From contig JACEVL010000479.1 of NCBI GenBank assembly GCA_020284085.1, forward strand, positions 774,103 through 838,102: 64,000 nt of DNA. The letters are read 5' to 3'. The first letter of the stretch is position 1. Every line of letters starts with the position of its first letter. Below are positions 11,487-62,099 of this stretch, one piece after another. Made by a program: the position numbers and the translations under genes. Source of the DNA: Aporrectodea caliginosa (Eukaryota > Annelida > Clitellata > Crassiclitellata > Lumbricidae). Under the pieces are notes generated by a model that worked only from the letters and a program-made list of their open reading frames with translations, did not search any database and was not told the DNA's origin.

Positions 11487-13260
11487 TGGAAATGGAGTGA
11501 AAAGGAGGAGGCGCGAATGGAGGAAAAGGAGAAAGAGAGCGAAATGGAGGGGAAAGGGAGAAGAGAGCGAAATGGAGGGTAAGGAGGAAGAGGTGAGAAA
11601 TGGAGGAAAGGGAAGAAGATGGAGCGAAATGGAGGAAAGGGAGGGAAGAGAGGTGAAACGGAGGAAAGGGAGGAAGAGAGCGAAATGGAGGGCAAGGAGG
11701 AAGAGAGCGAAATGGAGGAAAGGGAGGAAGAGAGCGAAACGGAGGAAAGGGAGAAAAAGAGCGAAATGGAGGAGGAAAGAATGGAGGAAAGGGAGGAGGT
11801 GCGAATGGAGGAAAGGGAGGAGGTGCAAATGGAGGAAAGGGAGGAGGTGCGAATGGAGGAAAGGAGGAGGTGCGAATGGAGTAAAGGGAGGAGGTGCGAA
11901 TGGAGGAAAGGGAGGAGGTGCGAATGGAGGAAAAGGAGGAGGTGCGAATGGAGGAAAGGGAGGAGGTGAGAATGGAGGAAAGGGAGGAGGTGCGAATGGA
12001 GTGAAAGGGAGGAGGTGCGAATGGAGGAAAAGGAGGAGGTGAGAATGGAGGAAAGGGAGGAGGTGCGAATGGAGGAAAGGGAGGAGGTGCGAATGGAGGA
12101 AAAGGGAGGAGGTGAGGAATGGAGGAAAAGGAGGAGGTGCGAATGGAGGAAAGGGAGGAGGTGCGAATGGAGGAAAGGGAGGAGGTGCGAATGGAGGAAA
12201 GGGAGGGGAGGTGCGAATGGAGGAAAAGGAGGAGGTGCGAGAATGGAGGAAAGGGAGGAGGTGCGAATGGAGGAAAGGGAGGAGGTGAGAATGGAGGAAA
12301 GGGAGGAGGTGCGAATGGAGGAAAGGGAGGAGGAGCGAATGGAGGAAAGGGAGGAGGTGCGAATGGAGGAAAGGGGAGGGAGGTGAGAATGGAGGAAAGG
12401 GAGGAGGTGAGAATGGAGGAAAAGGGAGGAGGTGCGAATGGAGGAAAGGGAGGAGGTGAAAAATGGAGGAAAAGGAGGAGGTGCGAATGGAGGAAAGGGA
12501 GGAGGAAAAGAGAATGGAGGAAAGGGAGGAGGTGCGAATGGAGGGAAAGGGAGGAGGTGCGAATGGAGGAAAGGGAGGAGGTGCGAATGGAGGAAAGGGA
12601 GGAGGTGAGAATGGAGGAAAGGGAGGAGGTGCGAATGGAGGAAAGGGAGGAGGTGACAATGGAGGAAAAGGAGGAGGTGCGAATGGAGGAAAGGGAGGAG
12701 GTGCAAATGGAGGAAAAGGAGGAGGTGCGAATGGAGGAAAGGGAGGAGGTGCGAATGGAGGAAAGGGAGGAGGTGCGAATGGAGGAAAGAGAGGAGGTGA
12801 GAATGGAGGAAGGGAGGAGGTGCGAATGGAGTGAAAGGGAGGAGGTGCGAATGGAGGAAAAGGGAGGAGGTGAGAATGGAGGAAAGGGAGGAGGTAAGAA
12901 TGAATGGAGGAAAGGGAGGAGGTGCGAATGGAGGAAAGGGAGGAGGTGAGAATGGAGGAAAGGGAGGAGGTGCGAATGGAGGAAAGGGAGGAGGTGGAAT
13001 GGAGGAAAGGGAGGAGGTGAGAATGGAGGAAAAGGGAGGGAGGTGCGAATGGAGGAAAGGGAGGAGGTGCGAATGGAGGAAAGGGAGGAGGTGAGAATGG
13101 AGGAAAAGGAGGAGGTGCGAATGGAGGAAAGGGAGGAGGAGCGAATGGAGGAAAGGGAGGAGGTGAGAATGGAGGAAAGGGAGGAGGTGCGAATGGAGGA
13201 AAGGGAGGAGGTGACAATGGAGGAAAAGGAGGAGGTGCGAATGGAGGAAAGGGAGGAGGT
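11487..13260 (+). repeat. Homopurine minisatellite array 2
   Basis: The array has the same design as array 1 but is shorter. 27-bp-type units occupy about 11487-11775 and 24-bp GGTGCGAATGGAGG units occupy about 11776-13260. It starts abruptly after CACATGGCATGG, where copy 2 of the flank instead continues into single-copy sequence (CACATGGCATATGAC). This marks the breakpoint of the tandem duplication. It ends with the same GGAGGTTCTGCC junction as array 1. Confidence 0.95.
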
Positions 13261-28950: not shown

Positions 28951-29013
28951 ACATTTTAATGACGAGAGTGTACTACAAGCAATTGGGAAACCAATGCAGC
29001 TCGATGTTAAAGT
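28951..29013. mobile_element. 66-bp palindromic micro-MITE abutting the 246-bp tandem repeat
   Basis: It carries ACATTTTAATGACGAGAGTG, then GGGAAACCAATGCAGCTCGA and TGTTAAAG. Its right arm (CTCGATGTTAAA) is also the first sequence of every unit in the tandem repeat that follows. Confidence 0.65.
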
Positions 29014-30236
29014 TTAAAAAAATGATTTATAAGATTAATTGGGTGAGATTGTGTTTGCTCTTAAAATCTAATTGACAGTTGACATAAGGTAAAAAGAGTG
29101 AGTTGAGTTGGATATCTGAGGTAAATATAATCAGCATAATATGGTAACACTAAGGCTTTAACTTGAGTTCCTTTGAAAATCAGAAGGAAGTGCCATTTGG
29201 TTTAACTGTTAATGCTTTAGCTTCAAGAAGTCTTGACTGAACCTAGCCTCGATGTTAAACTTTAAAAAATGATTTATAAGATTAATTGGGTGAGATTGTG
29301 TTTGGTCTTAAAATCTAATTGACAGTTGCATAAGGTAAAAAGAGTGAGTTGAGTTGGATATCTGAGGTAAATATAATCAGCATAATATGGTAACACTAAG
29401 GCTTTAACTTGAGTTCCTTTGAAAATCAGAAGGAAGTGCCATTTGGTTTAACTGTTAATGCTTTAGCTTCAAGAAGTCTTGACTGAACCTAGCCTCGATG
29501 TTAAACTTTAAAAAATGATTTATAAGATTAATTGGGTGAGATTGTGTTTGGTCTTAAAATCTAATTGACAGTTGCATAAGGTAAAAAGAGTGAGTTGAGT
29601 TGGATATCTGAGGTAAATATCATCAGCATAATATGGTAACACTAAGGCTTTAACTTGAGTTCCTTTGAAAATCAGAAGGAAGTGCCATTTGGTTTAACTG
29701 TTAATGCTTTAGCTTCAAGAAGTCTTGACTGAACCTAGCCTCGATGTTAAACTTTAAAAAATGATTTATAAGATTAATTGGGTGAGATTGTGTTTGGTCT
29801 TAAAATCTAATTGACAGTTGCATAAGGTAAAAAGAGTGAGTTGAGTTGGATATCTGAGGTAAATATCATCAGCATAATATGGTAACACTAAGGCTTTAAC
29901 TTGAGTTCCTTTGAAAATCAGAAGGAAGTGCCATTTGGTTTAACTGTTAATGCTTTAGCTTCAAGAAGTCTTGACTGAACCTAGCCTCGATGTTAAACTT
30001 TAAAAAATGATTTATAAGATTAATTGGGTGAGATTGTGTTTGGTCTTAAAATCTAATTGACAGTTGCATAAGGTAAAAAGAGTGAGTTGAGTTGGATATC
30101 TGAGGTAAATATCATCAGCATAATATGGTAACACTAAGGCTTTAACTTGAGTTCCTTTGAAAATCAGAAGGAAGTGCCATTTGGTTTAACTGTTAATGCT
30201 TTAGCTTCAAGAAGTCTTGACCGAACCTAGCCTTGA
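29000..30236 (+). repeat. Tandem repeat, five units of about 246 bp
   Basis: GATGTTAAA at the start of the units falls at 29003, 29251, 29497, 29743 and 29989. The spacing is 248 bp once and 246 bp three times. A partial sixth start follows at about 30231 (CCTTGATTTAG). The units are almost identical (for example AATATAATCAG versus AATATCATCAG), which suggests recent amplification or homogenisation. Nothing in the unit looks coding. Confidence 0.95.
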
Positions 30237-32300
30237 TTTAGCAAAAGGAATGTGAAGGACAACTTTTGTTTTAAAGCGCTGATTATAATAATAACAGGAA
30301 TGGACCATTATCTCGTATCCAATTACTACACAGGATAGGAGTCAATGGTTTCTGTCAAGCAAAACCGAAACCTTACAGTGATAATTATCATGCCTATTCA
30401 GAGCTTATGCAGTGCATGAGTTAATTTCAAGCTTTTATTATCTACAAACATAGCTTGTTAACATTGATTTTACAAGATATTTTTTCTGTTGAGAATTTGA
30501 AATTCATCTTCAGGTTTTGATATTTTAATTTGAGCATTAGCTTAATCTGGAGATTGCTTAAATGTTTACTGCAGCCAATGCTTCTGATTTTATTATGTGT
30601 GACTAGAAGTATCTCACAATAATTTGTACATATTAGTGTTATATATAAACCTTATAAACAGTGCTTTTGAGACGCTCCCCATTGGTGCTATATATGTCAT
30701 TTTGTATTACATGTAACTGTATTCAGATGACGAGGTCAGTTTATTTGACCTATCAACCTTTACATTCGTCAATCTTGGGCATTCCACAAAACGAGCCCTC
30801 TTTTCAATTCCTTATTTGGAACTATACTTATACCACTACCATTCCATCTTCCTGTGCTCTTCCTAGTTTTGCAATTTTCAACTTTAAAGCACATCAGTAT
30901 GTGTCCATTCCTTGAAGAAACCCTCACAAGGTCATAAAAATCCAAGTGAATTTGATACTAAACCGGACTGGGCAAAACATTTGGAACAATTGAGTGAAAA
31001 CCGCATTTTTCTATCACAATTGGTTTACTAAGTAGTTGCAATTTTTGAAAGATGTAGGTCTGTTAGTGATTATTTTTTAGAAATCCTGAGTTAAAGTTTT
31101 CTATAACTACGTCCGAGTCTATGTTGGTTGCTGTGCCTACAGGTTGTGAATGCTTATGATTATTGTAGATGGGAGTTTTTGGGATGCCTCTGTTGGCAAC
31201 CATTGATGAAACCGTAAAAACTGGCTAAGATGAATTTTTAAGTGACTTCTTCATTTGCATCAGAATTGATGCACACGATTCAAATTGGAGCATCAAGGGA
31301 ACACGTTCAATTGAATTTTTGTTGTGGGGCATCATAAAGAGAATTTAAAATAAAAATAGTAATGAAACTCTTAATAAGGACCTGCAGTTTGATAGCTAAT
31401 GCAAGAAAGTTATCTGCAGAGAAAGTGTTTCTGCAATAAGCTCATTTCTATGCATATCCTTCCTACTTGCATTCTGAGTGCATTTCTCGCAAATTTACTT
31501 TTGCATGTTGTGAGGGTTCTCTCAGGCTTGTCATGTGTAGTGAAAATGTAGGTGGGACGTACTTTCAACCTTCATTTGTCCACGATTTGTGTATCTTGCT
31601 TCCCCTATGGCCAGGATTTGGTATTCCTCCTTTGCAAGCCTGCGACCAAAGACTGAGGACCTCCTCAGGATCTCCATGTGAGGGGAGTTGGTTTTCACTT
31701 GCTCATCTGTATTTTCGTAAAAGTTAAGACTGTTCAACGTGAGTAAAATTTATCCAGCCTGTAAGCTGCTTTGCTGCACTGTTCATTTTGTATGCGTTTT
31801 TCAGGTGTTGGTGACATCCATATGACATCTGGAAAGGTGGACTTATGCCAAGTTGGACTTTTGTTGGACCAGTCGGATTTTTTCATTTAGCCGTTTTCAT
31901 GTTACAGATATACGTGGAAAGAACCATTTTTGTAACGTTGTGGATGCGCTCCCCTATTTCCGATCGGCTCAGTTGTTAGGGCATGGTAGAGCTTGGTTAC
32001 TCTGTGGAACTTTTGCAATGGCATGTCTCTTTAATTTAGCACAATTTGTGACAGACTGTTACTGTATTCTTCAGTTGTTGGCACTGAGTAACATGTGGTT
32101 GGAGACGGATTCTTGAGGGTCCACATGTAAATTTGTGTGCATAGGCGTAACTTTGTATTTTGACGGTGGTGTACAGTTACCATTGCTTTTTTCACCACCA
32201 CTTTGTGGGGCAAAATTATGCCAATGTTTGTGTGCCAGTGCTATATGATTTAATTTATGTTATGCAATTTGTGTTCTGTGTTCATAGTTTGTTTATTGAA
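30237..32300. other. Intergenic, no gene seen
   Basis: I see no exon of a known family, no RNA gene and no array. Short open stretches (for example 31467-31727) lack resemblance to anything recognised. Confidence 0.45.
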
Positions 32301-32714: not shown

Positions 32715-32971
32715 GCGTTGCATGCAATAAGGTACTCATCATGTTATCATAGCTGATTGGTTTTGAGCAGTTGCCTTGTAACATGGAATGTGCGGATTCA
32801 AGCCTCCAATGATCTGGTTACTGCATGATGATCTTCTGCAAGTTCTTTCTGCACAGTTGCTCAGTGCCACCAATTGACGTTTTGTTTTTACTTAATAGCA
32901 CTTAACACTTTAACGACGAGAGTGTACTAACAGTTACTGGGAAACCAATGCAGCTCGTCGTTAAAGTGTTA
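32715..32971 (+). mobile_element. SINE family 2 copy followed by a palindromic micro-MITE
   Basis: The SINE (about 32715-32905) has GGATTCAAGCCTCC, then TGCACAGTTGCTCAGTGCCA and CCAATTGACG. Directly after it, 32904-32971 is the cleanest copy of the 66-bp palindrome: AACACTTTAACGACGAG at one end and CTCGTCGTTAAAGTGTT at the other, with TTAA at each border. Confidence 0.75.
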
Positions 32972-40048: not shown

Positions 40049-40947
40049 TTCTGTGACTTGACGCCGTGCTTTTGGTGTGCTTGTGCCTTGCGCTTAGCTA
40101 TTCCGTAGCTCTTTAGTAAGACATTTTCCAGATAACGATTACATTCTTCAGCCCGGAGGCTCCTCAATTATTCCATGCTCATTTTACTATGTGGATTCGC
40201 ACATGACCCCAAAACGGCCGACATCAATGTTGATATGGCTCATAGCAATGCTATGCACTTTGGTGGCCATCTAAGGCCCTATTATATGGGCCTAATAGGT
40301 GCTCGTGGGCCCAACGAACGTGATTGTCAGAAGCGAGCTTTCACGAGCGTGGTACCCAGGCGCGTAACTAGCATTACGCAATTAAGCAACTGCGTAAAGA
40401 TGTCAACAGCTCTCAATAGCTACAAACCATTTAGATTACTTATTGACATTCTGGATTAGGCGGCTAGGTCTACTATTATTCGTTGAATTACTTATTGACA
40501 TTCTAAATTACTATTATTCGTTGAATTTCTATTGTGCAGACTTTGTTATCGTGAGGTCGGCAAACATTTTCCTTTGCAGACGCTAACTCCTGACTCTGGA
40601 AATTTCGTGGCAATTGTGAAATTTCGATCACAGACTGACACTATTTTAAATCATCTTAGGCTTATGTCATCTGTTCCACGCAATGCCCTGTAGGCCCTAC
40701 ATAAGTCCGTTGATTCGAAATGAGCTGATCCACCTGTGTGCCTGTGTGGTCAGTAAACTCGATACAGTATTTTCGCAGAATGTGACGGTGACGGCTTAAG
40801 CTTTATTATTTGCTGTGAGCGCAGATATCAGCAGCAGAAGTGACAGAACAGATATCGGTCTGCTTATCAAAGTTGATGGCGGTAACAACCCCGGTTCTCA
40901 GAATGTGGTAAAAGAACAATTTACAGCTTTCATCCTAACTCGTAGGG
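38418..40947 (+). repeat. 2.5-kb spacer, copy 1, with left-flank module
   Basis: Nearly identical to 45303-47817. It holds a SINE family 2 copy (about 38615-38790), the CTGT microsatellite (39848-40051) and the left-flank module (40357-40947) that also precedes array 1. No gene is recognised. Confidence 0.9.
39848..40051. repeat. (CTGT)n microsatellite, interrupted
   Basis: About 200 bp of CTGT broken by several TTCGTCTG and TCCGTCTG interruptions. The paralogous tract at 46733-46921 has no interruption. The reading frames through it are repeat artefacts. Confidence 0.95.
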
Positions 40948-41961
40948 AGCAAGAGAGCGTATTGAGGAAAGGGAGGAACAGAGAGAAATAGAGGGTAGGG
41001 AGAGAGCAAATGGTGGGTAGGAAATAAGAGAGCAAATGGAGAGAAGGGAGGCAGAGAGTAAAATGGATGGTATAGAGGAGGAGAGCGAAATGTAGGGTAG
41101 GGAGGAAGAGAGTGAACGGAAGGAAGAGGCGCAAATGGAGGAAAAAGAAGAAGAGAGCGAAATGGAGGTTAGTGAGGAAGAAAGCGAAATGGAGGCGAGG
41201 GAGGAAGAGAGCGAAATGGAGGAAAGGGAGAAAGAGAGCGAAATGGACGAAAGGGAGGAAGAGAGCGAAATGGAGGTTAGGGAGGAAGAGAGCGCGTATT
41301 GGAGTGGTAGGGAGGAAGAGAGCGAAAGGAAGGAAAGGGAAGAAGAGAGCGAAATGGAGTGGTAGGGAGGAAGAGAGCGAAATGGAGGAAAGAGAGGAAG
41401 AGCGCAAATGGAGGAAAGGGAGGAAGAGAGCGAAGTGGAGGGAAGGGAGGAAGAGAGCGAAATGGAGGAAAGGGAGGAAGAGAGCGAAATGAGAGGAAAG
41501 GGAGGAAGAGAGCGAAATAGAGGAAAGGGAGGAAGAGAGCGAAATGGAGGAAAGGGAGGAAGAGAGCGAAATGGAGGGTAGGGAGGAAGAGAGCGAAATG
41601 GAGGGAAAGGGAGGAAGAGATGAAATGGAGGGTGGGGAGGAAGAGAGTGAAATGGAGTGAAAGGGAGGAAGAGAGCGAAATGGAGTGGAAAGGGAAGAAG
41701 AGAGCGAAATGGAGGCTAAGAGAAGAGAGCGAAATGGAGGTAGGGAGGAAGAGAGCGAAATAGAGGAAAGGGAGGAAGAGATCGAATGGAGTGGAAAGGG
41801 AGGAAGAGAGTGAAATGGAGGAATGGAGGAAGAGAGCGGAAATGGAGGATAGGAGGAAGAGAGTGAAATGGAGGGTAGGGAGGAAGAGAGCAGAAATGGA
41901 GGAAAGGGAGGAAGAGATCGAAATGGAGGAAAGGGAGGAAGAGAGCGAAATGGAGGAATGG
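40948..41961 (+). repeat. Homopurine minisatellite array 3
   Basis: About 1 kb of 27-bp-type units (GAAATGGAGGAAAGGGAGG with AAGAGAGC), with frequent GAGGGTAGGGAGG variants. There is no 24-bp section. It ends at GAGGAATGGTGCTG, where it is fused to the interior of a 2.7-kb unit (GCTGTATTTTTTAACCGC). This marks a duplication breakpoint. Confidence 0.95.
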
Positions 41962-45302: not shown

Positions 45303-47817
<2,515 letters not shown>

Positions 47818-50800
47818 GGAGCAAGAGAGCGTATTGAGGAAAGGGAGGAACAGAGAGAAATAGAGGGTAGGGAGAGAGCAAATGGTGGGTAGGAAATAAG
47901 AGAGCAAATGGAGAGAAGGGAGGCAGAGAGTAAAATGGATGGTATAGAGGAGGAGAGCGAAATGTAGGGTAGGGAGGAAGAGAGTGAACGGAAGGAATAG
48001 GAGCATATGGAGGGTAGGGAGCAAGAGAGCGAATTGAAGGAAAGGGAGGAAGAGAGCGAAATGGAGGGTAGGGAGGAAGAGAACGAAATGAAGGATAGGG
48101 AGGAAGATAGCGAAATAAAGGCTAGGGAGGAAGAGAGCGAAATGAAGCCTACGGAGGAAGAGAGCGAAATGGAGGAAAGGGAGGAAGAGAGCGAAATGGA
48201 GGAATGGGAGGAAGAGAGCGAAATGGAGGGTAGGGAGGAAGAGAGCGAAATGGTGGAAAAGGAGGAAGAGAGCGAAATGGAGGAAAGGGAGGAAGAGAGC
48301 GAAGTGGAGGAAAGGGAGGAAGAGAGCGAAATGGAGGAAAGGGAGGAAGAGAGCGAAATGGAGGAAAGGGAGGAAGAGAGCGAAATGGAGGGTAGGGAGG
48401 AAGAGAACGAAATGGAGGGTAGGGAGGAAGAGAGCGAAATGGAGGGTAGGGAGGAAGAGAGCGAAATGGAGGAAAGGGAGGAAGAGAGCGAAATGGAGGA
48501 AAGGGAGGAAGAGAGCGAAATGGAGGAAAGGGAGGAAGAGAGAGCGAAATGGAGGAAAGGGAAGAGAAGAGAGCGAAATGGAGGCTAGAGAGGAGAGAGA
48601 GCGAAATGGAGGGTAGAGGAGGAAGAGAGCGAAATAGAGGAAAGGGAGGAAGAGATCGAAATGGAGGAAAGGGAGGAAGAGAGCGAAATGGAGGAATGGG
48701 AGGAGGAAGAGAGCGAAATGGAGGCTAGGGAGGAAGAGAGTGAAATGGAGGGTAGGGAGGAAGAGAGCGAAATGGAGGAAAGGGAGGAAGAGATCGAAAT
48801 GGAGGAAAGGGAGGAAGAGAGCGAAATGGAGGAATGGGAGGAAGAGAGCGAAATGGAGGGTAGGGAGGAAGAGAGTGAAATGGAGGGTAGGGAGGAAGAG
48901 AGCGAAATGGAGGAAAGGGAGGAAGAGAGCGAAATGGAGGAAAAAGGAGGAAGAGAGCGAAATGGAGGAAAGGGAGGAAGAGAGCGAAATGAAGGAAAGG
49001 GAGGAAGAGAGCGAAATGGAGGAAAGGGAGGAAGAGAGCAGAAATGGAGGAAAGGGAGGAAGAGAGCGAAATGGAGGGTAGGGAGGAAGAGAGCGAAATG
49101 GAGGGTAGGAAAGGAAGAGAGCGAAATGGAGGGTAGGGAGGAAGAGAGCGAAATGGAGGGTAGGAAAGAAGAGAAGAGAGCGAAATGGAGGGTAGGGAGG
49201 AAGAGAGCGAAAAGGAGGAAAGGGAGGAAGAGAGCGAAATGGAGGAAAACGGAGGAAGAGAGGCGAAATGGAGGGTAGGGAGGAAGAGAGCGAAATGGAG
49301 GAAAGGGAGGAAGAGAGCGAAATGAAGGAAAGGGAGGAAGATAGCGAAACGGAGGAAACGGAGGAAGAGCAGAAATGGAGGAAAGGGAGGAAGGGAGCGA
49401 TATGGAGGAAAGGGAGAAAGAGATGAAATGAAGGAAGGGAGGAAGAGAGCGAAATGGAGGAAATGGAGGAAGAGAGCGAAATGGAGGAGAGGGAGGAAGG
49501 AAGCGAAATGGAAGAAACGGAGGAAGAGGGCGAAATGGAGGGTAGGGAGGAGGAGAGCGAAATGGAGGAAAGGGAGGAAGAGAGCGAAATGGAGGAAACG
49601 GAGGAAGAGAGCGAAATGGAGGGTAGGGAGGGAAGAGAGCGAAATGGAGGGGTAGGAAGGAAGAGAGCGAAATGGAGGGTAGGGAGGAAGAGAGCGAAAT
49701 GGAGGAAAGGGAGGAAGAGAGCGAAATGGAGGAAACGGAGGAGGAAGAGGGCGAAATGGAGGGTAGGGAGGAAAGAGAGCGAAATGGAGGAAAAGGAGGA
49801 AGAGAGCGAAATGAAGGAAAGGGAGGAAGATAGCGAAACGGAGGAAACGGAGGAAGAGCGAAATGGAGGAAAGGGAGGAAGGGAGCGATATGGAGGAAAG
49901 GGAGAAAGAGAGCGAAATGAAGGAAAGAGAGGAAGAGAGCGAAATGGAGGAAATGGAGGAAGAGAGCGAAATGGAGGAGAGGGAGGAAGGGGCAGAAATG
50001 GAAGAAACGGAGGAAGAGGGCGAAATGGAGGGTAGGGAGGAGGAGAGCAGGAAATGGAGGAAAGGGAGGAAGAGAGCGAAATGGAGGAAAAGGAGGAAGA
50101 TAGCGAAATGGAGGAAACGGAGGAAGAGCGAAATGGAGGAAAGGGAGGAAGGGAGCGAAATGGAGGAAAGGGAGGAAGAGAGCGAAATGGAGGAAGAGAG
50201 CGAAATGGAGGAGAGGAAGGAAGAGAGCGAAATGGAGGAAAGGGAGGAAGGGAGCGAAATAGAGGTAAAGGGAGGAAGAGTGCGAAATGGAGGAAAGGGA
50301 GGAAGAGAGCGAAATGGAGGAAAGGGAGGAAGAGAGCGAAATGGAGGAAAAGGAGGAAGAGCGAAATGCAGGAAAAGGAGGAAGAGAGCGAAATGGAGGA
50401 AAGGGAGGAAGGGAGCGAAATGGAGGAAAGGGAGGAAGAGAGCGAAATGGAGGAAAGGGAGGAAGAGAGCGAAATGGAGGAAAGGGAGGAAGAGAGCGAA
50501 ATGGAGGAAAGGGAGGAAGAGAGCGAAATGGAGGTAAAGGGAGGAAGAGAGCGAAATGGAGGAAAGGGAGGAAGAGAGCGAAATGGAGGGTAGGGAGGAA
50601 GAGAGCGAAATGGAGGGTAGGGAGGGAAGAGAGCGAAATGGAGGAAAGGGAGGAAGAGGAGCGAAATGGATGAAAAGGAGGAAGAGCGAAATTGAGGAAT
50701 GGGAGGAAGGGATCGAAATGGAGGAAAGGGAGAAAGGGCGCGAAATGGAGGAAAGGAAGGAAGGGAGCAGAAATGGAGGTAAGGGAGGAAGAGAGCGAAA

Positions 50801-51922
50801 TGGAGGAAAGGGAGGAAGAGAGCGAAATGGAGGAAAGTGAGGAAGAGTGCGAAATGGAGGAAAGGGAGGAAGAGCGAAATGGAGGAAAGGAAGGAAGGGA
50901 GCAGAAATGGAGGAAAGGGAGGAAGAGAGCGAAATGGAGGAAAGGAAGGAAGAGAGCGAAATGGAGGAAAGGGAGGAAGAGAGCGAAATGGAGGAAAGGG
51001 AGGAAGAGCGAAATGGAGGAAAGGGAGGAAGAGAGCGAAATGGAGGAAAGGGAGGAAGGGAGCGAAATAGAGGAAAGGGAGGAAGAGTGCGAAATGGAGG
51101 AAAGGGAGGAAGAGAGCGAAATGGAGGAAAAAGGAGGAAGAGAGCGAAATGGAGGAAAGGGAGGAAGGGAGCGAAATGGAGGAAAGGGAGGAAGAGAGCG
51201 AAATGGAGGAATGGGAGGAAGAGAGCGAAATGGAGGAAAGGGAGGAAGAGAGCGAAATGGAGGAAAGGGAGGAAGAGAGCGAAATGGAGAGAAAGGGAGG
51301 AAGAGAGCGAAATGGAGGAAAGGGAGGAAGAGAGCGAAATGGAGGAAAGGGAGGAAGAGAGCGAAATGGAGGAAAGGGAGGAAGAGAGCGAAATGGAGGA
51401 AAGGGAGGAAGAGAGCGAAATGGAGGAAAGGAGGAAGAGAGGAAAGGGAGGAAAGGGAGGAAGAGGAGCGAAATGGAGGTAGGGAGGAAGAGAGCGAAAA
51501 ATGGAGGAAAGGGAGGAAGAGAGCAAAATGGAGGAAAGGGAGGAAGAGAGCGAAATGGAGGAAAGGGAGGAAGAGAGCGAAATGGAGGAAAGGGAGGAAG
51601 AGAGCGAAATGGAGGAAAGGGAGGAAGAGAGCGAAATGGAGGAAAGGGAGGAAGAGAGCGAAATGGAGGAAAGGGAGGAAGAGAGCGAAATGGAGGAAAG
51701 GGAGGAAGAGAGCGAAATGGAGGAAAGGGAGGAAGAGAGCGAAATGGAGGGTAGGGAGGAAGAGAGCGAAATGGAGGAAAGGGAGGAAGAGAGCGAAAGG
51801 GAGGAAAGGGAGGAAGGGAGCGAAATGGAGGGTAGGGAGGAAGAGAGCGAAAGGGAGGAAAGGGAGGAAGAGAGCGAAATGGAGGGTAGGGAGGAAGAGG
51901 AGCGAACGGAGGAAAGGGAGGA
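47818..51922 (+). repeat. Homopurine minisatellite array 4
   Basis: About 4.1 kb of 27-bp units. The start repeats the beginning of array 3 base for base, then the arrays diverge at about 47995. GAGGGTAGGGAGG, AAACGGAGGAAG and AGGGAGCG variants occur in local clusters. A patch near 49320-49560 recurs near 49810-50040, which indicates internal duplication of multi-unit blocks. The six-frame open reading is compositional. Confidence 0.95.
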
Positions 51923-52106
51923 AGGGAGAGTCAATCCATGTGAAATTATTATTAGGCCAATGTGTGAAATAGCCTACCTTGTACATGTCAGTGACCTATC
52001 TCAGATTTGGTTGTAATTTTGCTAATTTTTTGTTTTGTTACTACAATCATGTAGGCCTACATGATATTGAAATTGTCAGAAGCATATATCGCTACATGTA
52101 TCTGCA

Positions 52107-53282: not shown

Positions 53283-53472
53283 TCTCGACCTAAACGACAC
53301 CCACCTCTGCATCTACTCTGATCCCTCTGACCCCTCTGATCCTCTGGAAACCGGACTCGGACCTCCCTCGGACTACTCTTTTGGACAAGCCTTCTGACTA
53401 GACGCAGCGCTCGTGAATAAGCTGGTGCCCTGAGCTTGGCTTTCGAGTGGCGCTTTAGAAGTTTGGAGATTA
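53283..53472 (+). repeat. Long inverted repeat, left arm
   Basis: About 190 bp that match the reverse complement of 54881-55061. Long identical blocks include GACTAGACGCAGCGCTCGTG, AATAAGCTGGTGCCCTG and AAACCGGACTCGGACC. The arms enclose about 1.4 kb. Confidence 0.88.
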
Positions 53473-54520: not shown

Positions 54521-57500
54521 GGTATATTTTGCGAACTTTTTCTACGCTTATCTGAAAAGTAGTTTATGTCTCTATGGAAAATTGGTATCAGTAAAAATAA
54601 TTAGCGTTTTGCGTGGACGATGTAGGGTAAAATTGATGAGGTGGTATGGCGTGAAGCGTGGTCGTAAGATATAGTGCCACAGGACACATATTGTCTTCAT
54701 CCCACTCCATACTCGTGGGTCTTCTTACAACCATCCATTCCCATCAGCACAGCTCCGTAAACATTTAAAATGGCCACACTTATTCGTTCCTTGATACTCC
54801 ACTAATAACGTACAAGTTTACGCTAATCTGATTTCATTCAGTCACAAGTTTACACAGCATTTGCTGTATATATAATATTTTAATCTCCAAACTTATACAG
54901 CGCCACTCGAAAGCCAAGCGCAGGGCACCAGCTTATTCACGAGCGCTGCGTCTAGTCAAAGGTGTTGTCCAAAAGAGTTGTCCTGGGGGGGTCCGAGTCC
55001 GGTTTACAGAGGATCAGAGGGGGCAGAGCAGGTGTTGAGGCGGGCGTGGTTTAGGTCGAGAATTGGAAGGTAGAGGAAAAGGTGAGTCGGGGTTAGAGTT
55101 CAGGAAAAGGAGAGCCTATAGTTTCGAGTGGAAAGCCTTGGGGTAATGGATAGAGGAGCATGAGGCAGATGATGGTGGATGATTGATGATGGAGGTGGAG
55201 GAACCGAAAAGTGCGGAATTCAGGAGGCAGATATGTTCTTAATAGCGTTGAATTTTAAATATTTCTTAAGTATAAAATCTTAGTAAAATCATATGCTTAT
55301 GTTAAAATTCAAGTAGTTGTAAATCGTATTATTTTCTTTTTTCAGGGGTTTGTTAAAGTTGTCAAGAATAAGCAGTACTTCAAAAGGTACCAGGTGAAAT
55401 ACAGGAGACGACGAGGTGTGTATATTTTGCGATTTTGACTTTATTCTGTTATTCACATTGAAATCTAACACTATCTTTGCACTAGTATTTGATGAAACCT
55501 ATCAAAAAATAGAAATTTTAAACCAGCACAATGCTTAGCCTAAGTGGCATGGCTGAAATATGAATAATGAATATGCACTGTAAATGTCCATTATTCTGGA
55601 TTCATTGCTGAATTAATGCACTGTTGATTATATTGTAACTTTTACTTTGTCATTTAACTTGCAGTAGATTTAAAGAATTGGTAAAATTTGACTTTGGCTC
55701 GTCTTTGTCCGATCACGCATAAACAAGATGATTGACCCAGACTGGGAGAGGATAGAGAACTGCTAAAACTGAAAAATGGTTAAAATTACTGTTGGAAAAA
55801 ATTATAATTGTGATTACAACTGTGTATATAGCGTAATTAGCAGCAGGCTACTTCTAGGATGCTTTACAATGCCAAATGTTTATGCGAGTGCAAGAGTTAC
55901 TTGATATTATTGTATTTGAAGAGTTTATGATTTTTTTAATGTGTAGGTGAGTTAATGATGTCAGTTTGATTTGATTTGCAGAGGGTAAGACTGATTACTT
56001 TGCTCGCAAGAGACTCGTTGTCCAAGACAAGAACAAGTATAACACACCGAAGTACCGAATGATTGTGCGCATTACCAACAAGGACATCATTACCCAGGTA
56101 TGTTAGAGAAAATTAGCATCACTAATAGAATAATAGATCGTCGTTTTTCGTTGTGGCCGCTGATGATGGTATGTCATGCACCACTCTGAACACATTGTTG
56201 ATATATGACAAAACTGAGGCTACACAAAATGTCATTAACTTGTTTATTGTTTATAGTTGAGCGAACAAAATGTACTTTTAGAAGCTTTGAGAGATGTTAA
56301 ACTGTAGAAGCTTTGAAGTTCTATGTAAACTGTAAAGTTAATGTACTTTTAGAAGCTTTGAGAGAGGTAAAGCTGTAAAGTTAATGTACTTTTAGAAGCT
56401 TTGAGAGAGGTAAAGCTGTAAAGTTAATGTACTTTTAGAAGCTTTGAGAGAGGTAAAGCTGTAAAGTTAATGTACTTTTAGAAGCTGTGAGAGAGGTAAA
56501 ACTGTAAGGTTAATGTACTTTTAGAAGCTTTGAAGATGTAAAACTGTAAGGTTACCGTTTCTGTGTGTAGATAGCGTATGCCAGAATCGAGGGCGACATT
56601 GTTGTGTGTGCTGCTTATGCACATGAGTTGCCCAAGTATGGCATCAAGGTCGGGCTGACAAACTACTCCGCGGCTTATGCAACCGGACTTTTGTTAGGAC
56701 GCAGGGTAAGACGAATTAAAATATATAATAGTCATGCATAATTATGCATAGTAATGTGTTTTGGGGCATAACGATTAATTTGCAACCTTTGTTTACACTG
56801 GTCATGCATACTTAAAATTGCGCTACTTTGAATTCATATTTTCCAATGACCGTTATAAATGAACAACACTTAGAGGTTATTTTGCAGTTTGTGGTTTGTC
56901 TTGGTTTCAGTCCATTAGTAGTACTTCTAAATGACGTTAGGTTGTTTGATTGTGACGTATTAGCATTTTAGAAAAGTTTACCGTATTATTTACTCCCAGT
57001 CAATGATTGGTTTGGAACATCTGCTTTGTTGATGTTTCAGGTACATGTACTGGGAAAAATTAATGAGCATTGAAACGAACAACGTAAACTGTCTGTTGTT
57101 ATGTTGTTAAGTGTTGCACTACATGTTTCATGATTAATAATTATCAGTTGCGGTTTGTAAGAATGAATGTATGTGTCTTCATTTATTCTTCTTCAATAAC
57201 TTGAGCAGGCAGAACGCTGCTCGTTACATTAAGACAGTTGGGGAAACTGTTCATGATATGGGTCAAAACTAATACATGTTTTTATACATCATGCACGATA
57301 TAAAATTTGCTGTGTCCCTGTCAGGGAGGGAAAATTTGTTAGGCTGTGGGCATAAATTGTGCGTTGTTGCTTGTTGTGGTGGGCAAAGCTCATGGAGGAC
57401 ATGCTGCTCATTGACCTGTATAGCGCGAAACAGGGTGTCATCTGTAATTTAATGTTAATTTATATAGCGCCGCTCACAGCAGTGGCCATTCAGTAGCTCT

Positions 57501-60500
57501 TCCAGTTCGAGAACCCTAGAGAAGAAGGTTTTGCGGATGGAGAAGGCTGTAGGAAGAGACCAAGAAAGAATGGTAACATGTAGAGAGGAGGGAAGGGCAG
57601 GGAGGGCCCGATATAGTGCTAACCAGCAAAAAAATTCTTTTTTAAGTCAGTTAGCCTTTTCCATGATCTAGAATTTCAAGTAGTTGTGTTCGCATTATGG
57701 TTGTGCAGATCCTAAAGAAATTCAACTTGGATGGGATCTATGGTGGGACTGAGAGCGTGACTGGAGAAGAGTACCACGTTGAGTCTGTTGATGGGCAGCC
57801 AGGTGCATTCCGCTGCTATCTGGATGTTGGTCTTGCCCGGACGACAACTGGTGCGAGAGTCTTTGGTGCCCTGAAGGGAGCTGCCGATGCTGGTTTGGAA
57901 GTTCCCCACAGGTAATGCCCTACATCAGAAGCATGGTAGTTACCTTGACAGGTGCTTTTGTTGTTTGAACATTGGTTTGGTAATTAGATTATAAAATTAT
58001 TTGTAGAGGTGCTTGATCAAAATGTTAAGTGCAGGAAATTTGCGAGTAATAATTATGACAATTTATATGGCGCTGTAACACGGCCAAGCCGTAACACGGC
58101 CATGCCGTTACAGGGGCGCCTAACAAAACAGCTAACAAGTCGGGATAAGCCCTGGCGAACAAACGTGATTTTAGCATGGATTTTAAAGAGTCCACTGATT
58201 CGGCCAATCGAATAACAGGAGGAAGTAATAATGTAAGCGACTCGATGCTACTAGAGGTTAGATTTGAGTAGAATGTATTGCTGCATCAGATCATTTGAAT
58301 TAACATTTTAAATAAGCTTTTGTGGGTTATGGGTTGGAGCCTTTCAAATATCTGATGCCTGACAATTCACTGTATAGCAACAGAAGCACACAGATGACTT
58401 GTTTTAGTGATTGTGGCAGTTGCAAACTGTTTCTTGGTACTAAAATGACCAGTGATGACATTTTGTCATGCACCACTCTGAATATTTTGTGGATATGACT
58501 TCCTGAGGTTCGTGTGTAATGCAAACATGTTATGAAACGAACAGCTGCTGTGTTTATTCATTCTGTGTGTACATTTGATAGAAATAAAATTTGAAGAAGT
58601 TCTATTACAAAGAGCTGGAAAAGTAAAGTTTAGTAATTGATTGTTGCTTGTTGTTCAGTACTCTCCAACAGTTTTTAATATATTTAGATCTTACCTTGGT
58701 CAGTTGAAAGTTTAACGATGAGCTGCATTGGATTCCCAGTCACTTTTAGCGCAGTTTTGTTGTTAAAGTTTTAACTGACCAAAGATCAAATACATTTATG
58801 TTCTCGAACCGTTTCTTGGTAATAAAATGACCAGTGATGAAATTTTGTCATGCACCACTCTGAATATTTTGTGGATATGACTTCCTGAGGTGAAGTCTTT
58901 GTTTAGTGTGTGAACATTTAATAAAAATAAAATTTGAATAAGCATAATTACGAATACTTTGCAAAAGTAAAGTTTAATGGTAATTGATTATTGCTATTCA
59001 GTATCCAATAGTTTATAATATATTTAGATCTTTCATTTGAATGTATTGTACTGGGTATCTTTGGTCAGGTAATCTGTTAAAAAATCATTAGATAGATATA
59101 CTTGTACAAAAGTTTATTAAAGGACAATTGATAGACTTCTGGCCATTGATGACATCTCTGAATATTATTTAACCAACGTTTCTTTCAGGATATAGAATCA
59201 TAAATGATTTTAGCAGAGAAAATTGCTTTCTGTTTTGTATTACTTTCTGAAATGAAACATTTAAAATTAAATAATTAAAAATAACTCCAATTCTGCTTTC
59301 AGCTAGTCTTGAATTTCATAATTACTTGTAAGTCACGTGATAAAAAATGCAATACTGATTCATAAATACATATTGTTTTACTAGGGTATGTTATGTCAAC
59401 CATTTTTGCCTATGGTTTGTTGACTTGTGATGACTTAATGTCATGCACCACTCTGAACATTGTGTGGATTATGACTTTCTGAAGTCTTATAAACATCCAT
59501 AGAAATTTGCCAAGTTTACCATTATTAATCACACCCGGTTTATTAGTAAAACTTCTAAAACACAGTAAATGCAGGCATATAAGCATCTCAATGTGATGAG
59601 TGCCATGACAACCTAACACTTTAACTACGAGCTGCTTTGGTTTCCCAGTCACTTTTAGTGCACGCTCATCGTTAAAGTGTATTGCCAGTGCAAGAAAATT
59701 TTTAAATAATATACTTGATAAAAAATGCAATACTGATTCATAAATACGTATTTTTAAGTTGGTTTTGTTTTGTCGCATTTTTGCCTATGGTTTGTTGACT
59801 TGTGATGACTTGATGTCATGCACCACTCTGAACATTGTGTGGATTATGACTTCCTGAAGTCTTATAAACATCCATAGAAATTTTCCAAGTTTACCATTAT
59901 TAATCACACCCTGTTTGTTAGCAAAACTACTAAAACACAGTAAACGCAGGCATATAAGTATCTCAAGGTAATGAGTGCCATGACAACCCAGCACTTTAGT
60001 GACGAATTGCATTGGTTTCCCAGTCACTTTTAGTGCACAATCATCGTTAAAGTGTATTGCTAGTGCAAGAAAATTTTTAAATAATGTACTTGTCACTCCA
60101 GACCATTAGAAGTTTTTTGAGTAAACTATTTCTGGTGAAATCACGTCTAAAAATTTGAAATAAATTTAATGTTTGCTTGAACAGCACCAAGCGTTTCCCC
60201 GGCTACGACAGAGAAGGCGGTAACTTCGATGCCGAGGTTCACCGCAAGCACATCTTTGGCCAGCATGTTGCTGATTACATGAAGCTGCTGCAACAGGATG
60301 ATGAGGACAGCTACAAGAGGCAGTTCTCCAAGTACATCTCCAGCAACATTCAGCCAGATAACGTGAGTTCTGTTTCACATTTATTATTAGAATGATTTAC
60401 TCGCGATTATAACCTTCATAATGTACACCAAAATGCATTTAGCAATTAGTTCAATAAAAAAGGATATACTTACTTACTTATTACTAGAATGATTATGTAC

Positions 60501-62098
60501 TTCTGTTGGTTAAGCTTCTGGAATTTTGCCTTAGCTTTTGCTGGATATCCGTGGTGCATAAATTAGATGTTCTGTAGATGCGTTGGCTGTTCTGTCACAG
60601 TTTTGTTTACACTTCTTGTAATTTTACAGTTCTGAGAGATAGACTTGCAGTATAAAGCGTTAATTATTAAATAATTTAAAAAAATCCAATTCTGCTTTCA
60701 GCTAGTCTTGAATTTCGTAATCGCTTTGTAAGTCACATGATAAAAATGCAATACTTGTTCATAAATACATGTTTTTTAGTCGGTTTTGTTTTGTCAGCCA
60801 TTTTTGCATATGGTTTGTTGACTTATGATGACTTAATGTCATGCACCACTCTGAACATTGTGTGGATTATGACTTTCTGAAGTCTTATAAACATGAAAAT
60901 TGAAGAAGTTTATGTATCATCGCTTTTATTTAACGCTTCAACGAACTACAGTAGTTTCCTCGTCGCTTTTAATGACTCTCATGATTAAGTGTTAAGCTTA
61001 GAGATTTGTGTGCAACAAGATTTGTATTTTGTTTTCAGATTGAGGAGATGTACAAGAAGGCGCATGCTGCAATTCGTGAGAATCCAGCATATGAGCCAAA
61101 GGAGAAGAAGGCGGCAGAAGGAAAGCCAAAGAGGTATGTGGTCTGTTTGGCATGTTTTGTTTGACGCAGCAACCGGTTGCTTTGTGAACTACCCTTTTAG
61201 CACCGATGGGTTCGTGCCTCAGTGAGATGGTTGCTTTGCAAATAGCCAGGGCAAGTTCTCGTGTACAGCTGCTCATTGCCTTCAGCTCAAGTGTGCTTTG
61301 TTGTTGGATAATGGCACTTAATAAATACGGAAGTCTTGATATGTTGAACAAGTAAATTAACCATGTAAGAAAATGGAATGAGCAGCAAAATGCTCGTGTC
61401 AAAAGTGCTTACAGTGAATTTGGCCGCATCTGAGACGTGTGTATGCCTGAAGTCAAATTAACAATTTATAGAAAACCAAATACGACCGTTATCTTTTACT
61501 TGGTTAATTTGTGTTCAATATGTTAAGACTTCAAAAGGCTTTAAGCACTAGCATGAAAAAACGTGAGCTTCACTGCCAACTCACGATTTGACACTTTAAC
61601 GACAAGCGTGTATTATAAGTGACTGGGAAACCCATCGGCAACTGTACCTCATATTAGATTTGTTTGCCTTTCTATTATGTAACTCGCTGCAGTTTGTCAG
61701 TCTGTTCTATTAAACGAAGATATATATAGCTCACCTTTAAAGTGTTACACATCTTTGAAATAAACAGCTTTGAAATGCCAACTCAATCACAATAGCAAGC
61801 CAAACATGAAGAATTGTTTTGAATAAATTTCGCTGTGAGACAAATTATAAGACGAAATGACAATCGAAATCTCACCCACATGACTGATTTACATGAAAGT
61901 GTATACTTACATGTAGATCTGTAAATTTGTGTGTGCTTGCTTAAATACAAAAGGCACAGATGATACAACTTGTAAAATATTCATTGTTTTTTCAGGCACA
62001 ATCGTATAAAGTTGTCCAGGGAACAGCGCAAGGACCGTGTGCGCCAGAGAAAGGCAATCTTCCTGAAGAAGAAGGCCGAGGAGAATGTGGATGAATAA
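54518..62098 (+). CDS. RPL5: Ribosomal protein L5 / uL18 (gene span, spliced)
   Basis: Eight exons on the plus strand splice in phase into a 300-residue protein (human RPL5 has 297). Its N-terminus ([20 protein letters not shown]), central [20 protein letters not shown] and [15 protein letters not shown] motifs, and [14 protein letters not shown] are diagnostic of uL18. The protein binds 5S rRNA, travels with it and uL5 into the nucleolus and forms the central protuberance of the 60S subunit. The C-terminal 60 residues are lysine- and arginine-rich. All exon phases agree. Introns 3, 5 and 6 contain six copies of a box C/D snoRNA, in keeping with the habit of animal ribosomal-protein genes to host snoRNAs. 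Exon 1 is the only uncertain part. Confidence 0.97.
54881..55061 (-). repeat. Long inverted repeat, right arm
   Basis: Reverse complement of 53283-53472 with small differences. Together the arms make a 1.78-kb foldback structure. The right arm lies within RPL5 intron 1 if exon 1 is at 54442-54520. Confidence 0.88.
55346..55415 (+). CDS. RPL5: RPL5 exon 2
   Basis: A 70-nt exon between CTTTTTTCAG and GTGTGT encoding residues 2-24 ([12 protein letters not shown] onward through the basic KYRRRR segment) plus one base of the next codon. The basic N-terminus contacts 5S rRNA in known structures. Confidence 0.97.
55982..56097 (+). CDS. RPL5: RPL5 exon 3
   Basis: A 116-nt exon between TTGATTTGCAG and GTATGT. 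It completes Glu25 and encodes [20 protein letters not shown] to IITQ (residue 63). Nearly every residue matches the human protein. Confidence 0.97.
56156..56221 (+). ncRNA. Box C/D snoRNA copy 1 (U32/snR40-like guide), RPL5 intron 3
   Basis: Box C TGATGA at 56161, internal D' CTGA at 56186 and box D CTGA at 56214. The flanks GCC and GGC pair into a short terminal stem. The 13 bases before D' (GTCATGCACCACT) are shared by all six copies. They pair with the 18S rRNA segment GGUGGUGCAUGGC, allowing two G-U pairs. The sequence before box D (GATATATGACAAAA) differs from the other copies. This is the most diverged member, and its box C is preceded by C rather than a purine. Confidence 0.72.
56269..56552 (+). 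repeat. 43-bp minisatellite in RPL5 intron 3
   Basis: About six units of AATGTACTTTTAGAAGCTTT with GAGAGAGGTAAAGCTGTAAA, lying just after snoRNA copy 1. The first unit is longer and degenerate. No coding or RNA role is evident. Confidence 0.9.
56571..56705 (+). CDS. RPL5: RPL5 exon 4
   Basis: A 135-nt exon (45 codons, residues 64-108) between TGTGTGTAG and GTAAGACG encoding [20 protein letters not shown] and ending LLLGRR. Phase is 0 at both ends. Confidence 0.97.
57455..57615. repeat. LINE/SINE-tail-like fragment in RPL5 intron 4
   Basis: TATAGCGCCGCTCACAGCAG and GGCCATTCAG resemble AAGCGCTTCTCACAGCAG and GCTATTCAG at the 3' end of the LINE fragment at 42902. It is probably a diverged relative. 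The remainder is purine-rich and unassigned. Confidence 0.4.
57709..57911 (+). CDS. RPL5: RPL5 exon 5
   Basis: A 203-nt exon between GGTTGTGCAG and GTAATGCC encoding [20 protein letters not shown] onward to GLEVPH plus two bases (residues 109-175). It includes the [20 protein letters not shown] core, nearly invariant in eukaryotic uL18. Confidence 0.97.
58447..58510 (+). ncRNA. Box C/D snoRNA copy 2, RPL5 intron 5
   Basis: Box C GTGATGA at 58452, D' CTGA at 58478 and box D CTGA at 58503, with the terminal stem GACC/GGTT. The guide before D' is GTCATGCACCACT. The second guide region (GTGGATATGACTTC) is identical to copy 3. Confidence 0.85.
58706..58773. mobile_element. 66-bp palindromic micro-MITE, RPL5 intron 5 copy a
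   Basis: AGTTTAACGATGAGCTGCAT at one end and GTTGTTAAAGTTTT at the other, with the family core GATTCCCAGTCACTTTTAGC. It follows snoRNA copy 2 at the same kind of distance as the palindromes after copies 4 and 5. Confidence 0.7.
58829..58892 (+). ncRNA. Box C/D snoRNA copy 3, RPL5 intron 5
   Basis: Box C GTGATGA at 58834, D' CTGA at 58860 and box D CTGA at 58885. The stem is GACC/GGT(G). It is almost identical to copy 2, including the upstream TTTCTTGGTA and the downstream stretch, so the pair is a recent tandem duplication. Confidence 0.85.
59422..59487 (+). ncRNA. Box C/D snoRNA copy 4, RPL5 intron 5
   Basis: Box C GTGATGA at 59427, D' CTGA at 59453 and box D CTGA at 59479, with stem GACT/AGTC. 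D' guide GTCATGCACCACT; D guide GTGGATTATGACTTT. A C'-like TGTGGA follows D'. Confidence 0.88.
59615..59681. mobile_element. 66-bp palindromic micro-MITE, RPL5 intron 5 copy b
   Basis: AACACTTTAACTACGAGCTG opposite CTCATCGTTAAAGTGT, with core GGTTTCCCAGTCACTTTTAG. It sits 133 bp after snoRNA copy 4, the same as the palindrome after copy 5. Confidence 0.75.
59797..59862 (+). ncRNA. Box C/D snoRNA copy 5, RPL5 intron 5
   Basis: Box C GTGATGA at 59802, D' CTGA at 59828 and box D CTGA at 59854; stem GACT/AGTC. The flanking 370 bp are a tandem duplicate of those around copy 4. D guide GTGGATTATGACTTC. Confidence 0.88.
59991..60056. mobile_element. 66-bp palindromic micro-MITE, RPL5 intron 5 copy c
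   Basis: GCACTTTAGTGACGAATTGC opposite CATCGTTAAAGTGT, same core as the other copies. It is part of the duplicated snoRNA unit. Confidence 0.72.
60185..60362 (+). CDS. RPL5: RPL5 exon 6
   Basis: A 178-nt exon between GCTTGAACAG and GTGAGT. It completes Ser176 and encodes [20 protein letters not shown] and onward to NIQPDN (residue 235). It covers the [12 protein letters not shown] helix conserved in the family. Confidence 0.97.
60820..60885 (+). ncRNA. Box C/D snoRNA copy 6, RPL5 intron 6
   Basis: Box C ATGATGA at 60825, D' CTGA at 60851 and box D CTGA at 60877; stem GACT/AGTC. Both guide regions equal those of copy 4. It lies in the next intron, so the unit was copied across exon 6 rather than only in tandem. 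Confidence 0.88.
60931..60995. mobile_element. 66-bp palindromic micro-MITE, degenerate, RPL5 intron 6
   Basis: TAACGCTTCAACGAACTACA opposite ATGATTAAGTGTTA, with a worn core (TTTCCTCGTCGCTTTTAATG). It again follows a snoRNA copy at short range. It is the most diverged member in the gene. Confidence 0.5.
61039..61133 (+). CDS. RPL5: RPL5 exon 7
   Basis: A 95-nt exon between TTGTTTTCAG and GTATGTGG encoding [20 protein letters not shown] then [11 protein letters not shown] plus two bases (residues 236-266). The [13 protein letters not shown] motif is invariant in animals. Confidence 0.97.
61155..61330 (+). mobile_element. tRNA-derived SINE family 2 in RPL5 intron 7
   Basis: It carries GATGGGTTCGTGCCTCAG, then CAAGTTCTCGTGTACAGCTG, CTCATTGCC and a CACTTAATAAATACGG tail. 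It aligns with the other family 2 copies but is diverged. Confidence 0.55.
61590..61748. mobile_element. Expanded relative of the palindromic micro-MITE, RPL5 intron 7
   Basis: The left end GACACTTTAACGACAAGCGT plus GACTGGGAAACCCATCGGCA matches the 66-bp family. The matching right end (CTTTAAAGTGTTACAC) is about 90 bp further away than usual. It may be an insertion or a longer parental form. Confidence 0.45.
61996..62098 (+). CDS. RPL5: RPL5 exon 8 and stop
   Basis: A 103-nt coding part after TTTTTTCAG. It completes Arg267 and encodes [20 protein letters not shown] and [13 protein letters not shown] (to residue 300), then TAA at 62096-62098. The basic tail is the expected C-terminus of uL18. 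Confidence 0.97.
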
Positions 62099-62099
62099 A
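62094..62099 (+). terminator. RPL5: AATAAA hexamer overlapping the RPL5 stop codon
   Basis: The stop codon TAA is embedded in AATAAA. If used, the 3' UTR would be only about 15-25 nt. An alternative ATTAAA lies near 62303, giving a more ordinary UTR of about 220 nt. Which one is used cannot be decided here. Confidence 0.3.

Follow-up and report, generated by a model that had tools for sequence, protein, structure and literature searches.

Box C/D small nucleolar RNAs (snoRNAs) guide 2'-O-methylation, and the closest described relatives of the locus treated here direct it to one site in 18S ribosomal RNA (rRNA), for which a table of PMC3511168 gives Gm1328 (U32) in human, Gm1272 (snoR21) in Arabidopsis, and Gm1269 (snR40) in yeast. 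Human U32A/B are termed double guides in PMC2653536, where chicken GGgCD25 is predicted to target this 18S site through its D' (5') guide and has two copies, in introns 4 and 7 of KPNB1. Multiplication within one host gene is described in PMC1821038 for Drosophila DmSnR60 a-d, four copies of a C/D guide in mfl, one per intron and each ~70 nucleotides (nt) from the 3' splice site. Clusters within a single intron are reported for plants and, as a pair, for P. falciparum RPS27a (PMC2656528), and intronic H/ACA gene clusters in Drosophila are named by title in the reference list of PMC2246290. In sponge, the third intron of RPL5 houses another snoRNA, one related to U24 (PMC3412847); together with the chicken KPNB1 entry, this indicates that the hosts of single guides vary among animals. 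No title on annelid or mollusc snoRNA hosts was among the literature matches listed. Here, we describe the RPL5 gene in a 64,000-nt stretch of contig JACEVL010000479.1 (hereafter, the window), in which what appears to be a guide for this same site has been multiplied to six copies.

The introns of this gene carry six box C/D snoRNA-like sequences of 64-67 nt, every one in gene sense. We consider it highly probable that they are paralogous intronic box C/D snoRNA genes, a judgment that concerns the identity of the guide and its target and not the number of working copies. Their RNA ends were set from the terminal stems, and are thus predicted:

56155..56221, + strand: copy 1, the most diverged, in intron 56098-56570; box C CTGATGA at 56160, D' CTGA, box D 56214-56217
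58447..58510, + strand: copy 2, in intron 57912-60184; box C at 58452, box D 58503-58506
58829..58892, + strand: copy 3, tandem sister of copy 2, in intron 57912-60184; box C at 58834, box D 58885-58888
59422..59486, + strand: copy 4, in intron 57912-60184; box C at 59427, box D 59479-59482
59797..59861, + strand: copy 5, tandem sister of copy 4, in intron 57912-60184; box C at 59802, box D 59854-59857
60820..60884, + strand: copy 6, in intron 60363-61038; box C at 60825, box D 60877-60880

All six share an exact 19-mer, TGTCATGCACCACTCTGAA, which comprises the D' guide and the D' box and begins at 56172, 58464, 58846, 59439, 59814, and 60837, always on the + strand; 100 shuffles of the window lead one to expect 0.00 such words. 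Box C reads RTGATGA in copies 2-6 and CTGATGA in copy 1, boxes D' and D are CTGA throughout, and the C' place holds merely a degenerate TGTGGAT or TGTTGAT. The terminal stems differ in sequence among the copies, being GCC/GGC in copy 1, ACC/GGT in copies 2 and 3, and GACT/AGTC in copies 4-6. Beside the boxes they are 3-5 bp long, with copy 1 extending to 7 unbroken bp (TGTGGCC/GGCTACA) and copies 4 and 5 adding CTATGG/CCATAG beyond the terminal stem. All 21 cells of the stem alignment are paired, and two of the four pairs have changed on both sides in a compensatory manner, which happens in none of the slid controls. A scan of both strands by motif alone (RTGATGA, CTGA, and a stem of ≥4) returned only copies 2, 4, 5, and 6 on the + strand of the window and a single site on the - strand. 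Copy 1 scores 71.1 bits with our model R1, of which it is itself a member.

The guide lies directly before the D' box:

56173..56185 (copy 1), + strand: D' guide GTCATGCACCACT, pairing with 18S; the same guide is found at 58465, 58847, 59440, 59815, and 60838

With 18S segment GGTGGTGCATGGC it forms 13 gapless pairs (11 Watson-Crick and 2 G-U) starting from the base that adjoins D', and the fifth pair counted from D' falls on a G. The target segment is present in the Rfam RF01960 eukaryotic consensus, where 12 of its 13 letters are capital, and capital letters denote strong conservation. It also occurs in 18S fragments L001-L006, which were retrieved with that very segment as query. Shuffled guides did equally well in 2 of 300 trials, so the pairing by itself is only moderately unlikely to arise by chance; it becomes convincing once the exact register and the match to the family are considered as well. 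On the D side, the guides of copies 1, 2, and 4 did not surpass shuffles in matching rRNA (103, 174, and 67 of 200 shuffles were equally good) when compared with partial rRNA, 28S included, of other eukaryotes, and the copies therefore look like single guides. The original prediction had reported six copies in introns 3, 5 (four of them), and 6 with common C, D', and D boxes and a terminal stem, as well as a 13-base D' guide with two G-U pairs and a fifth pair on a G; both descriptions were borne out. It had also equated the site with human G1328 and yeast G1271. The fifth-pair G does fit human Gm1328, judging by the Um1326/Gm1328 spacing in the PMC3511168 table rather than by counting along human 18S; the yeast number differs from the Gm1269 of that table.

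Under the reading we prefer, each ~64-67-nt RNA would be released from the RPL5 introns after splicing and would bind the C/D proteins, with fibrillarin; the D' guide would then pair with 18S GGUGGUGCAUGGC, and a 2'-O-methyl group would be placed on the G of the fifth pair. Expression, processing, methylation, and a benefit from dosage are steps that we infer.

The coding part of RPL5 occupies the 3' portion of the window, and joining its exons gives a uL18 protein without stops:

55346..62099, + strand: RPL5 (uL18), coding exons 2-8 with their introns, defined by a splice-consistent frame and protein matches
55346-55415, 55982-56097, 56571-56705, 57709-57911, 60185-60362, 61039-61133, and 61996-62099, + strand: the exons used

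Please note that these exon numbers, and the intron numbers 3, 5, and 6, presume one RPL5 exon upstream of 55346. In a protein search, the best match of the spliced product was an environmental protein (99% identical) and the first named organism was the leech Helobdella (78% identical, within the best 120 of 7990 matches); uL18/RPL5 chains from PDB were also among the matches. Copies 1 and 6 each have an intron to themselves (56098-56570 and 60363-61038), and the other four, copies 2-5, are housed together in a single intron of 2273 nt (57912-60184). Two repeats accompany the gene: a 43-bp minisatellite of ~5-6 units (56269-56549) directly after copy 1 in intron 3, and an inverted repeat of 148 nt, 91% complementary, that pairs 53325-53472 with 54881-55028 upstream of exon 2.

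When named families were compared at relaxed E-values, the best match was Rfam RF00533 (snoMe18S-Gm1358), a Drosophila family; Drosophila a/b/c copies of the guide are presumably in RpL5 likewise. Over the 9-kb region it reaches 46.0 bits against a cut-off of 50 (expectation value, E, 1.8e-6) with copy 6, followed by copies 4 (44.4), 5 (40.1), 2 (29.9), 3 (29.8), and 1 (23.5). In the alignments of copies 6, 4, and 5, the D' block CATGCACCACTCTGA and the guide are the same as in the model. Box C (ATGATGA/GTGATGA) is also shared, as is the stretch ahead of box D in copies 4 and 6 (GATTATG..TTTCTGA). Unlike the model, the copies lack 11 positions between D' and C', carry two extra bases after box C, and have another terminal stem sequence. 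A further Rfam family (cut-off 44) shares the block GTCATGCACCACTCTGA at D' and matches all six copies at 30.4-34.7 bits, below its cut-off, but its alignment to copy 6 is gapped by 4, 7, and 15 model positions. The yeast snR40 model, RF01201, gives 14.6 bits on copy 6 against a gathering score of 50 and is not listed for the 9-kb region. The original prediction had proposed a covariance search with the SNORD32/snR40 models, of which snR40 fits poorly. Its "U32/snR40-like" label is apt for the shared target only.

The guide was then sought across the assembly (1,097,852,775 bases in 4544 contigs). The 17-mer made of guide and D' occurs 6 times, all in the RPL5 copies, and its reversed control not at all. 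A shorter 15-mer, CATGCACCRCTCTGA, occurs 7 times, six of them in RPL5. The seventh place (L023) was rejected as a snoRNA: no RTGATGA precedes it and no CTGA box D follows it in the stretch read, and it scores 11.4 bits with model R1. RF00533 was also run against the genome, with 69 of 105,224 first-look candidates scored. At best it reached E 5.3e-5, and the top three of the 10 places listed were copies 6, 4, and 5; five of the ten are RPL5 copies 2-6 (copy 1 does not appear), and the other five lie elsewhere. None of these five (L016, L017, and L020-L022; 25.2-31.8 bits) has an intact guide. The best of them, L016 (1501-1571; G000 C832:246985-247055; 31.8 bits, genome E 0.2), has a guide-like GATGCACAACTCTAGA followed by GCAGATTATGGATT, which resembles part of the stretch before box D, and its likeness to the family extends along its whole length, yet it has no box C, D', or D and may be a chance match or a decayed relative. 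Separately, the type-P1 twister ribozyme is weakly matched by L022 at 1548-1624 (G000 C23), with 33.9 of 67.2 bits and E 3.8e-4. As word and model counts over a genome may be underestimates, diverged copies may exist elsewhere. Since the exact guide was not found outside RPL5 in this assembly, it is probable that the 18S mark comes chiefly or entirely from RPL5 and that the additional copies increase its supply.

How the set grew can be read from the surroundings of the copies. Copies 4 and 5 have ~380 nt in common (59335-59717 with 59713-60092), copies 4 and 6 have ~250 nt in common across two introns, and copies 2 and 3 share 240-290 nt. Between the surroundings of copies 2 and 4, the best local alignment is confined to the snoRNA. 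At 67-71% identity to the rest, copy 1 is the most diverged and probably represents the oldest split. The common flanks point to tandem and inter-intron duplication inside RPL5, and the claim in the original prediction that the guide was multiplied within this gene can be regarded as demonstrated at the level of sequence. A move or copying of the guide into RPL5 in this lineage, which it also proposed, is possible. When pairs 2/3 and 4/5 are pooled, differences number 3/126 in the snoRNA versus 51/486 in the flanks (Fisher p 0.0024); pooling 2/3 with 4/6 gives 2/126 versus 40/351 (p 0.0004). That the snoRNA changes less than its flanks favors the upkeep of more than one copy, and short-range gene conversion could mimic such constraint.

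Several observations weigh against our interpretation and should be borne in mind. The stem covariation concerns 4 pairs only, and 42 of 500 shuffles also give two pairs changed on both sides; copies 2 and 3 show no outer pairing exceeding shuffles. The target segment is known only from the RF01960 consensus and the 18S of other eukaryotes. The constraint is based on few differences, with single pairs giving p 0.011 (2/3), 0.031 (4/6), 0.14 (4/5), and 0.36 (5/6). No Rfam family attains its gathering score in the window, and this point also speaks for a chance repeat family that resembles a snoRNA; since motif, guide position, stem covariation, and family scores concur against that idea, we find it barely credible. 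From copy 1 to copy 6, the distances to the 3' splice site are 349, 1674, 1292, 698, 323, and 154 nt, none of them near the ~70 nt given as the optimum in PMC1821038. Four copies per intron also depart from the pattern of one gene per intron that the same paper terms widely observed in animals.

These last points also bear on how many copies work. One or two alone may be expressed (copy 6, the sole copy in its intron, or copy 1 being the likeliest), with the others recent duplicates in decay that are alike through youth or gene conversion. Pairs 2/3 and 4/5 do lie in tandem duplicates, and a shared intron together with long splice-site distances may hinder release. On the other hand, the 19-base block of guide and D' is the same in all six, even in so divergent a sequence as copy 1, and both the reduced change relative to the flanks and the covarying stems argue for maintenance, gene conversion over short range being again able to imitate them. 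We hold this explanation to be possible, though on balance doubtful.

If the four copies of intron 5 are all released, trimming of the linear intron from both ends would leave them joined, so an internal cut or extra splicing would be needed. Two kinds of features in these introns are of potential relevance:

58690..58790, + strand: strong hairpin between copies 2 and 3 (z -6.5; repeat family D6)
59608-59686, + strand: related hairpin between copies 4 and 5 (z -3.3; repeat family D6)
59983-60062, + strand: related hairpin after copy 5 (z -2.1; repeat family D6)
59303-59327 and 60702-60727 (the latter before copy 6), + strand: candidate cassette exon of 25/26 nt, duplicated, with TTCTGCTTTCAG before and GTAAGT after

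The hairpins contain a ~60-nt palindromic repeat resembling a miniature inverted-repeat transposable element (58711-58769, 59620-59678, and 59995-60053, + strand), and they could serve as spacers or processing elements; the stretch after copy 6 (60925-61005) is unstructured (z +0.8). At 32923 and 61609 on the - strand there is also a related word, differing by 3 mismatches. This word, and the position of D6 hairpin repeats downstream of copies 2, 4, and 5, could suggest that the snoRNA is a passenger of a mobile or hairpin repeat, its copy number being irrelevant to the ribosome. We think this very unlikely: the 17-mer guide word was not found elsewhere in the 1.1-Gb assembly, which means that the intact snoRNA has not spread, and the sole repeat family identified that holds all six copies is the snoRNA core itself.

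As for the candidate exon, intron 5 has a single GTRAGT, at 59328, and intron 6 has just one besides the splice site, at 60728; each stands 25 or 26 nt after TTCTGCTTTCAG. The two are duplicates and count as one event, and they may have arisen by chance; we offer them as a lead. It is conceivable, if unlikely, that intron 5 is a multi-snoRNA cassette whose release is aided by RNase III-type cuts in the hairpins between copies 2/3 and 4/5 or by hidden cassette exons of 25/26 nt. Were this so, splicing choices in RPL5 would set the dose of one 18S methylation, and the gene of a 5S ribonucleoprotein component would be tied to small-subunit methylation.

Elsewhere in the window, long purine-rich minisatellites with related 24- and 27-bp units occupy 2307-7776, 11489-13260, 40942-41958, and 47814-51928; they are open in several frames because they contain few stops. 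A 246-bp satellite of five units (99% matches) lies at 29000-30237.

The guide type and its target are already known and are not new. What is unusual is the presence of four guide copies in one animal intron, none near the usual distance from the 3' splice site. With one guide amplified to six copies in the same host gene, the locus is a natural setting in which to test how several snoRNAs leave a shared animal intron and whether the extent of a given rRNA methylation is set by copy number. A further host, probably annelid, is thereby added to those known for ancient guides. The predicted target is the same 18S G as that of human U32A/B (SNORD32) and yeast snR40 in the PMC3511168 table. Human U32 has a second guide that addresses 28S (Am1511); the D-side guides of copies 1, 2, and 4 do no better than shuffles on partial 28S of other eukaryotes. 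The P. falciparum pair PFS15/PFS16 differs in number (two in one intron versus four here) and in belonging to an organism that is not an animal. Drosophila DmSnR60 has a 28S target and one copy per intron; it resembles the present set in that one C/D guide was multiplied by duplication within one host gene. Chicken GGgCD25, compared by table entry, has KPNB1 as its host and one copy per intron, and it shares with the RPL5 copies both the predicted 18S site and the presence of more than one copy within a single host gene.
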